A stretch of DNA of 64,000 nucleotides from Haloarcula salina. GTDB taxonomy: Archaea; Halobacteriota; Halobacteria; Halobacteriales; Haloarculaceae. The notes below the pieces were generated by a model, which searched no databases, was not told where the DNA came from, and saw nothing but the letters and a program-made list of their open reading frames with translations. The position numbers and the translations under genes were made by a program. Location: NCBI RefSeq assembly GCF_010119195.1, contig NZ_WRXL01000001.1, positions 496,001 through 560,000 on the forward strand, given 5' to 3'. This document shows positions 12,299 to 13,796 of this stretch, in pieces (position 1 is the stretch's first letter; each line of letters begins with the position of its first letter).

Positions 12299-12712
12299 AT
12301 GGACGACCTCGACAGAGAGATACTCTCGATCCTCCGCCGGGACTCCCGAACGCCCTACACGGAGATCGCCGACCAGGTCGGAACGTCGGAGGGAACAGTG
12401 CGAAACCGGGTCGAACAGCTCGTCGAGGACGGCGTCATCGAACGCTTTACCGTCGCGACGCGGACCGGCAACGTCAAAGCGATGATCGAAGTCGGCGTCG
12501 ACGTGAACGTCGACACCAGCGCCGTCACCGACCGCATCGCCGAGTGGCAGGAGGTCGACTTCGTCTGGCAGGTCTCCGGTGAGGAGGACATCGTGGTCGT
12601 CGTCGACGCCGCCGACACCGACGCCGTCAACGGACTCATCACGAAGGCCCGGGAGCTAGAGGAGGTCGTGGGGACGAAGACGAGGCTGATCTTGGACGAG
12701 CGAGTGGGGTGA
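12299..12712 (+). CDS. Lrp/AsnC-family transcriptional regulator
   Basis: A 137-residue protein. The N-terminal AsnC-type helix-turn-helix covers MDDLDREILSILRRDSRTPY through EGTVRNRVEQLVEDGVIERF (about residues 1-50). A ferredoxin-like ligand/oligomer domain follows. Such proteins bind DNA as dimers or higher oligomers and often sense amino acids. The Halobacterium homologue trh3 also lies beside carA, as far as I recall, so control of the car genes is likely. The gene's last nine codons and stop (12683-12712) are repeated twice more just downstream. Confidence 0.92.
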   Translation: MDDLDREILSILRRDSRTPYTEIADQVGTSEGTVRNRVEQLVEDGVIERFTVATRTGNVKAMIEVGVDVNVDTSAVTDRIAEWQEVDFVWQVSGEEDIVVVVDAADTDAVNGLITKARELEEVVGTKTRLILDERVG

Positions 12713-12870
12713 GCGACAGCGAACCCACTCGGTGAACCGATATTTGCCGAGTGAGGCTAATATTGGACGAACGCGTCGGCTGAGCGCAGGCGAAGCGACG
12801 CGCAGAACCGATATTTGCCGAGTGAGGTTGATTTTGGACGAACGCGTCGGCTGAGCGCAGGCGAAGCGAC
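12683..12870 (+). repeat. 71-bp tandem repeat of the lrp 3' end, about 2.65 copies
   Basis: Copies start at 12683, 12754 and 12825, an exact 71-base period; the third stops at 12870. Each copy begins with codons for RLILDERVG and a stop. The first copy is the true gene end; the other two lie after the stop codon. Codons differ only synonymously (CTG/CTA/TTG, ATC/ATA/ATT, GAG/GAA, CGA/CGC, GTG/GTC, GGG/GGC). Copy 1 has a hairpin with arms 12701-12708 and 12724-12731, and copy 2 has one at 12772-12778 and 12796-12802. The arms carry two compensating base changes, and the stop codon lies in the loop. Copy 3 has lost the outer right arm. Confidence 0.95.
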
Positions 12871-12920
12871 AATCTATCCGCGTGGCTGACATTCATGGTC
12901 GTCGCCCCGGTACGGAGGGT

Positions 12921-13796
12921 ATGCAGGTCACGGACCCGTTTTCGGGGGACCTCGCCTCGACGTACGCGCAGCTCGCGGAGGACGGCGCGGAGTTCCTCGT
13001 CGTGGGGGCGGTCCTCTATTTCCTGGGTCGGTTACTCCTCGTTCCGGCCATCCGCTGGGGACTGGAACGGTCGAAGATCGACCAGACGCTCGAGAGCGCG
13101 CTGGGAAGCGTAAGTCACCTCGTCGTCGTCGTCCTCGCGGTGGTCGTCGCCGCGAGCGTCGCGGGGTTCCAGGGGACCCTCGCCGGCTCGACGCTCGTCG
13201 CGGCCGGCGTGACGATCGCCGTCGGACTGGCCGCCCAGGACGTGCTGGGGAACTTCGTCTCGGGCGTGTTCATCGTCACCGACCCGGACCTGAACGTCGG
13301 CGACACCATCGAGTGGAACGGCAAGCGCGGCGTCGTCGTCGACATCGACCTCCGGGTGACGCGCGTCCGGACGCCCGACAACGAGCGGATCATCGTCCCG
13401 AACACCGACCTGGCGACGAGCGCGGTGACCAACCGGACCTCGACGGGACCGATCGGGATCTCGTACAACTTCGGCGTCGGCTACGACGCCGACCTCGACG
13501 AGGTGGAGGCCATCATCAGGAGCGTCGCCCGCGACATCGACCACGTCGCCGAGAAGCCGGAACCGGTGGTCGGGGTCGACGAACTCGCCGACACCGCCGT
13601 CCTGGTGACCGGGCGCATCTGGATTCCGAACAACCGTCGGAACCGATTACCGAGCGTCCACTCGTCGTTCGTCCGCGGCGTCCACGAGGCCTGCCGCGCC
13701 GAGGGCATCGACCTCAGCGAGACGAGACAGCACGCGGTCTCGGGCGACCTCGCGGTCCACGACCCCGCGGAGACGGTCGACGAGCGGTCTCCGTGA
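12921..13796 (+). CDS. MscS-family mechanosensitive channel
   Basis: A 291-residue small-conductance channel. About three TM helices come first (FLVVGAVLYFLGRLLLVPAI and two more). The pore-lining and beta-domain hallmark follows: GLAAQDVLGNFVSGVFIVTDPDLNVGDTIEW split around residue 115, then the beta domain with TRVRTPDNERIIVPNTD. It releases solutes on hypo-osmotic shock, fitting a halophile. ATG 12921 is preferred: the upstream GTG at 12882 lies just past the tandem repeat and adds an unlike N-terminus. Confidence 0.9.
   Translation: MQVTDPFSGDLASTYAQLAEDGAEFLVVGAVLYFLGRLLLVPAIRWGLERSKIDQTLESALGSVSHLVVVVLAVVVAASVAGFQGTLAGSTLVAAGVTIAVGLAAQDVLGNFVSGVFIVTDPDLNVGDTIEWNGKRGVVVDIDLRVTRVRTPDNERIIVPNTDLATSAVTNRTSTGPIGISYNFGVGYDADLDEVEAIIRSVARDIDHVAEKPEPVVGVDELADTAVLVTGRIWIPNNRRNRLPSVHSSFVRGVHEACRAEGIDLSETRQHAVSGDLAVHDPAETVDERSP

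Follow-up and report, generated by a model that had tools for sequence, protein, structure and literature searches.

The 3' end of lrp, which encodes an Lrp/AsnC-family regulator, is followed in Haloarcula salina and in other haloarchaea by a short array of further copies of the same gene end. Comparative evidence supports reading the downstream copies as former functional lrp ends that were retired and stacked by repeated replacement of the end of the gene, as the initial annotation of this DNA had supposed for copies 2 and 3. The window analyzed here is a stretch of 64,000 nucleotides of the H. salina genome. As judged by sequence comparison across haloarchaea, the arrays are characterized by an exclusive location at lrp, an exchange of the gene end at a sharp boundary, displaced old ends, a polarity of decay and hairpins whose arms covary. 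We think it probable, if with some reservation, that coding-free hairpin cassettes insert site-specifically after the sequence ACGAGG in lrp, bringing a replacement end with them.

Copies of the lrp 3' end in the window and in other haloarchaea

Three copies of the lrp 3' end, starting at 12683, 12754 and 12825, follow one another at a spacing of 71 bp, as seen both in the sequence and in the repeat listing [Table 1]. Each encodes RLILDERVG followed by a stop codon, and only the first is translated. The last 10 codons of lrp, a gene divergent from carA, make up the 5' half of unit 1. In line with the initial annotation, all differences between the copies in this 30-base segment are synonymous and none is nonsynonymous; its count of six affected codons also held, but the variable sites number seven rather than the "eight or so" it gave. 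Copies 2 and 3 each depart from copy 1 at 6 of 30 bases, for a total of 12 synonymous and 0 nonsynonymous changes; the binomial probability of this split is approximately 4e-7 if the changes are independent and truly larger given that several of them are common to copies 2 and 3. The core was found nowhere else in the 3.8-Mb genome, even with three mismatches allowed, and such a match arose in 8 of 1020 trials with shuffled downstream sequence; the array is thus not a product of chance. A sequencing or assembly artefact was rejected as well, the same layout occurring in many independently sequenced genomes.

Table 1. Features of the lrp locus, with positions in the window
Feature	Position	Strand	Basis or remark
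lrp, Lrp/AsnC-family regulator, 137 aa	12299..12712	+	ORF; AsnC/Lrp domains; orthologues in carA-lrp context in Haloarcula genomes with flanks
Putative target-side flank ACGAAGACGAGG inside lrp	12674..12685	+	Exchanged segment starts directly 3' of the flank (synonymous-divergence step)
Unit 1: functional lrp end (12683-12712) and 41-nt spacer (3' arm, tail GAGTG)	12683..12753	+	One hairpin
Unit 1, upper stem 5' arm CGAGTGGG, within lrp coding sequence	12701..12708	+	Pairs with 12724-12731
Unit 1, upper stem 3' arm CCCACTCG	12724..12731	+	Folding
Unit 1, lower stem 3' arm, ends GCC; inverted match to core start (GGCTGATCTTGG)	12737..12748	+
Unit/unit junction GCCGAGTGAGG	12746..12756, again 12817-12827	+	Conserved in most Haloarcula arrays
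Unit 2: retired lrp end (RLILDERVG*, 12754-12783, 6 synonymous differences from copy 1) and 41-nt spacer	12754..12824	+
Unit 3, truncated: retired lrp end (12825-12854) and first 16 nt of spacer; lower stem lost	12825..12870	+
mscS-type channel gene, downstream of the array	12882..13796	+	Gene at this position varies among Haloarcula species

Arrays of two to four units of 54-127 bp, located only directly 3' of lrp, are present in 14 of the 32 Haloarcula species, in five other genera of the family and in one genome of another family (G195). In the 14 Haloarcula species the second copy starts 61-126 bp after the first, and some have a third. Outside this genus, four copies were counted in genomes G131 and G327, three in G137, G242, G196 and G442, and two in G089, G439 and Halosimplex salinum (G414). 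Copy number, whose variation the initial annotation had proposed to look for, ranges from one to four between species. No close core pair, as defined by the pattern used, was detected in any further genome among 392 of the order. The core pattern occurs in the 32 Haloarcula species genomes only at the lrp end, and core and junction patterns run against whole genomes of the genus and family matched nowhere else; a dispersed REP or MITE family was rejected, the units lying at the lrp end only. Of the 3956 ORF ends covered in about 1 Mb of neighboring DNA, only those of lrp show end duplication systematically.

The gene found 3' of lrp is strongly variable within Haloarcula (window 12882-13796; loci L061-L091): in some species mscS follows at once, and others have inserts, up to 10 kb long, that contain transporter, AIR-synthase-like, GMC oxidoreductase or histidine kinase genes. 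In Haloarcula mannanilytica (G023, locus L072), the carA-lrp segment lies in the opposite orientation to its neighbors, with mscS beyond carA, a gene X beyond lrp, and one breakpoint close 3' of the lrp-end array. In a genome of another family (G127; locus L103, G127:C135, 4600-6788), a 2.2-kb segment separates lrp from a second lrp 3'-end copy of approximately 104 bp that is joined to a small ORF. This is a gene-end duplication of greater extent at lrp; the genes of the 2.2-kb segment, named from sequence only, are PHP-like and diacylglycerol-kinase-like.

Downstream copies were collected by nucleotide similarity to the first copy of the same genome only, a search without bias to synonymous change. 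The comparison of synonymous and nonsynonymous change that the initial annotation had suggested was run on a lineage subset and yielded 77 synonymous and 8 nonsynonymous differences between copy 2 and its own copy 1, against a neutral expectation of 29% synonymous (p approximately 1e-32 for copy 2, an indicative value as shared ancestry is only partly removed). Copies 3 and beyond gave 40 synonymous and 19 nonsynonymous differences in the lineage subset; copies adjacent to lrp are thus almost entirely compatible with coding, and those farther from the gene are more decayed. Copies 1 and 2 differ at up to 11 of 30 bases, mostly synonymously; a target duplication of the CRISPR or casposon type was rejected because the repeats are this far from identical. 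Downstream units were also found to match the lrp ends of other species, an outcome that the initial annotation had listed as support: copy 2 of G005 equals the functional end of G047, that of G023 is exactly the functional end of G018 and G019, and that of Halosimplex G414 is one base from functional ends elsewhere. Identical units, or nonsynonymous changes at the neutral rate, had been named beforehand as outcomes contrary to this reading. Neither is general, and pure recent duplication was rejected as a general account, but the units of G137, G020, G007 and G242 do look like simple recent duplications.

Exchange of the gene end

Among pairs of species with lrp bodies at least 96% identical, eight have exchanged ends and six have ends that are alike. 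Synonymous differences per codon in the eight exchanged pairs amount to 0.06-0.10 up to codon 126, 0.17 over the next three codons and 0.53 over the last nine, whereas the last nine codons of the six other pairs show 0.07, as the body does. The step in divergence falls at the Arg codon of ACG-AAG-ACG-AGG, with no trail of donor changes upstream. This codon, which precedes the exchanged segment (window 12683-12685), is AGR in 21 of 23 multi-copy genomes versus 17 of 28 single-copy genomes (p=0.02), CGN being commoner in the latter (11 of 28), as if AGG were perhaps part of the target site.

Several groups of genomes retain the displaced ends. The lrp bodies of G196, G131 and G089 are 98% identical and their copies 2 identical, while the first copy of G089 is 8-9 of 27 bases off those of the other two. 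G004 and G018, whose bodies are 97% identical, differ at 7 of 27 end bases, and copy 2 of G004 is G018-like. In G041 and G001 a shared pair of unit lineages is found, together with the spacers, in reversed order, and in G196, G414 and G023 the first two copies are different as whole units, again including spacers. The displaced ends and the swap in order indicate that a new unit was placed between lrp and the old end, several times independently. As in the scar of an att site, the gene end is reconstituted and the old end duplicated on the far side; as in the mobile ORFs of fungal mitochondria, a foreign functional terminus stands ahead of a displaced native terminus.

The divergent ends might instead reflect a mutation hot spot at the hairpin, where replication would stall, template switching and error-prone repair would introduce changes, templated correction would match the arms and slippage would duplicate the unit. 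This explanation, already disfavored and in our view very improbable, accommodates the strong hairpins, the matched changes in both arms and the constant spacing of the tandem copies. It does not, however, predict that ends are either body-like (0.07) or wholly different (0.53) without gradual divergence, that G089 and G131 share a conserved untranslated copy 2 but have different translated copies 1, or that the pattern in copy 2 stays synonymous-only.

We propose that the lrp 3' end in haloarchaea may serve as the insertion site of a tiny DNA cassette, 54-127 bp long and coding-free. Each cassette would carry a substitute lrp end (R-L-I-L-D/N-E-R-V/L-G-stop) followed by a loop and by a 3' arm able to pair with this end, which would allow one strand to fold into a long hairpin. 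Upon insertion after ACGAGG, the incoming cassette would provide lrp with a new synonymous end, silent for the protein, and push the old end and its own hairpin one unit downstream, where it would be untranslated and decay slowly. Repeated insertion would generate a polarized stack, with the newest unit at lrp and the oldest and most degraded farthest from it; local duplication and deletion between units would also alter copy number. A recombinase acting in trans, most likely a tyrosine recombinase, would recognize either the folded strand or the junction with its palindromic arms on both sides of GAGTGAG. That the units are foreign DNA inserted site-specifically, and that they are mobile at all, is what we infer from these comparisons. 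Among the observations that count against the cassette model, some arrays are plain tandem duplicates, and the units are clade-typical in their residues, which follow their own clade (V, L or W; for instance DEWLG, read both in G442 and in G443, its sister with a single copy), so that any transfer would be short-range and may also have proceeded by homologous recombination between relatives.

The main rival to the cassette model, which we regard as rather unlikely, dispenses with dedicated mobility and invokes unequal crossing-over and slippage on an old tandem array, combined with homologous recombination with related haloarchaea as the source of foreign units; the repeats would provide the homology, and selection would leave only functional first copies. 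The identical or near-identical tandem units of G137, G020, G007 and G242 and the match of units to the clade of their host agree with this scenario, and deletion between units could give both the single-copy genomes and hybrid ends (e.g. G021). Against it, the exchanged tract begins at a sharp boundary with no donor SNPs upstream, and the whole-unit differences seen in G196, G414 and G023 are not of a kind that slippage could create, while homologous recombination would need repeated independent cuts at very short homology.

Hairpin structure of the units and the search for a recombinase

Most units, taken from core to core, fold as one long hairpin in which the lrp coding end forms the 5' arm and the 3' arm covaries with it, a property that the initial annotation had not mentioned. 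From a GGC/GCC foot, the hairpin proceeds through a lower stem made of the Leu-Ile-Leu codons, an internal loop and an upper stem made of the Arg-Val-Gly codons to an apical loop beginning close to the stop codon. The hairpin of unit 1 has a folding energy of -30.4 kcal/mol as RNA (z=-4.2) and that of unit 2 of -31.9 kcal/mol (z=-5.1). RNAalifold found no consensus structure on a MAFFT alignment of the units because the spacers do not align; spacers were therefore permuted among the 37 units, and arm covariation was measured on minimum-energy folds. The summed energy with own spacers was -1212, versus a permuted mean of -948 (sd 20), with 0 of 5000 permutations as low, and for 31 of the 37 units the own spacer gave a better fold than the average foreign spacer did. 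Several pair types occur in the stems at third codon positions, and the upper stems of unit 1 (CGAGTGGG/CCCACTCG) and unit 2 (CGCGTCG/CGACGCG) represent compensatory changes within the window. The units of G001, G002 and G089 are longer, with extra sequence in the apical loop. We note that scattered intergenic hairpins with the loop GGTGAGCGNNAGCGAACC (locus L156 of G002 near 1810; also G005, G008, G015 and G019) have the apical loop of some lrp units; in about 620 kb, 10 such hairpins were counted versus 6 in a Markov control, a number near the control. A BLAST lead at another G002 locus was rejected as a further unit, being an intergenic hairpin that shares the apical loop only.

A stable covarying stem-loop starting in the coding end would also be expected of a functional RNA or terminator at the end of the lrp mRNA, retained in multiple copies for its own function without being mobile. 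We deem this the least probable of the explanations considered, as more than half of the Haloarcula genomes are single-copy, often without a clean hairpin after lrp, a covariance-model search of the unit against Rfam gave no match up to E=5, and an RNA function leaves unexplained the foreign first units that stand ahead of retired ends.

Unit/unit junctions, such as GGATTCGCC-GAGTGAG-GGCTAATCC, have palindromic arms, the left half inside lrp being without visible symmetry. Arms around approximately 7 bp (GAGTGAG) are also the layout of a tyrosine-recombinase core site, and this likeness is among the points in favor of the units being scars of full-size integrative elements (a provirus or plasmid with integrase) that used the lrp end as att site and later lost their body. 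Such an origin would have precedents in gene-end replacement at att sites, which is classical (e14 in icd; PMC6379469), and in the AsnC-family regulator gene reported as att site of the archaeal element NitGar-E6 (cited in PMC8371274). We nevertheless consider it decidedly unlikely. No core pair enclosing an integrase-bearing element was found in 392 genomes of the order, the only distant pair being that of G127 (2.2 kb, two ordinary-looking genes), and random loss of a body should not yield a covarying hairpin of similar length every time.

Between two lrp ends, no element body with an integrase was found, the spacers being only 24-97 nt long, and no endonuclease ORF is present in the units (127 bp at most). 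Integrases of the PF00589 family are present in all 32 Haloarcula genomes, and none among the matches listed for these genomes adjoins lrp. No recombinase gene was recognized in seven inserts 3' of lrp (G007, G044, G002, G009, G016, G020 and G045), the ORFs of which look ordinary and, named from their sequences only, include ABC transporter, AIR-synthase-like, GMC oxidoreductase and histidine kinase genes. Searches of IMG/VR viral contigs returned no match to the core pattern and seven to the junction pattern, all of them in unrelated contigs and attributable to chance; a BLAST search of plasmids and phages with the array gave chance-level matches only, and no Lrp protein was found on plasmids. 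These negative results, from which neither a donor nor a free form of the unit emerged, also count against the cassette model, as does the failure to recognize a recombinase gene in the seven inserts or an integrase next to lrp among the matches listed.

Significance and relation to known systems

If the cassette model is true, haloarchaea of this family harbor a unit of mobility or exchange that is much smaller than any integrative element and has a single chromosomal gene end as its home, and thereby a simple system for finding the responsible recombinase. The 3' end of a core gene may then have a history apart from that of the gene body, which calls for caution, and stacks of successively retired ends would provide material for studying exchange between species. 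Why an integration site would sit in a protein gene with synonymous positions matched to a hairpin arm would likewise become testable. No earlier account of lrp-end arrays, including lrp-end repeats in Haloarcula, was found in the literature searched.

The hairpin elements of REP/RAYT and IS200/IS605 systems, which are tagged palindromes (PMC3733652), resemble the lrp units in being short hairpins with a conserved short tag beside the stem foot, but they are dispersed through genomes whereas lrp units occur at one locus only. Archaeal integron attC arrays and CALINs (PMC9668308) likewise consist of arrays of recombination-like sites of diverse sequence and conserved fold, with units lacking a neighboring integrase, and the structure-conserved single-strand hairpin typical of attC sites is found in lrp units. 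The attC sites, however, have terminal boxes GTTRRRY/RYYYAAC with a G|TT crossover, while lrp junctions are without such boxes and read GCCGAGTGAGGCT or similar; integrons moreover carry gene cassettes, of which lrp units have none, the site overlapping the end of a host gene instead.

Attachment sites of archaeal tyrosine recombinases are site-specific and mostly located at gene ends, and an AsnC-family regulator gene is used by NitGar-E6 (reviewed in PMC8371274), making a target of the lrp type plausible. Common to both are the gene-end target and the AsnC-family gene; dyad symmetry, expected at the core of such sites, is visible at the unit/unit junctions and not in the left half inside lrp. 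The NitGar-E6 case, likened here by its description, is from Thaumarchaeota, and the lrp site differs in having neither element body nor integrase. Integration of prophage e14 into icd of E. coli provides the gene with a new 3' end, while the former end persists as a duplicate on the opposite side of the element (PMC6379469). This replacement of the 3' end of a protein-coding gene, with the old end left as a duplicate, is shared with lrp. Unlike the lrp units, e14 is a prophage with one 163-bp duplicate and has no hairpin cassette or stack of gene ends.

The lrp units work most closely, by analogy, like the mobile ORFs of fungal mitochondria, homing-endonuclease elements that replace the C-termini of genes such as atp6 in Allomyces and atp6, atp9, cox2 and nad3 in Glomus (PMC3630166). 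These elements bring in a foreign C-terminal end in frame and displace the native end, which matches close relatives, downstream; a terminus in Glomus atp6 that agrees with that of its relative differs from it only synonymously (PMC3630166). The foreign in-frame C-terminal end and the native end displaced downstream constitute the likeness to lrp. Both e14-type att sites and mobile ORFs are nevertheless defined by a feature that the lrp units do not have, namely an element body with its integrase or endonuclease. Whereas the fungal elements include an endonuclease ORF and affect several mitochondrial genes, the lrp units are 54-127 bp long, code only for the gene end, form a hairpin, occur in arrays and affect one gene, in archaea. 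The lrp-end cassettes stand a fair chance of forming a class distinct from those already described. More tentatively, this could be a new class of minimal gene-free cassettes that are recognized by their folded structure, moved in trans, and persist by providing the host gene with a working end, their insertions being silent for the protein and the retired ends forming a time-ordered archive.
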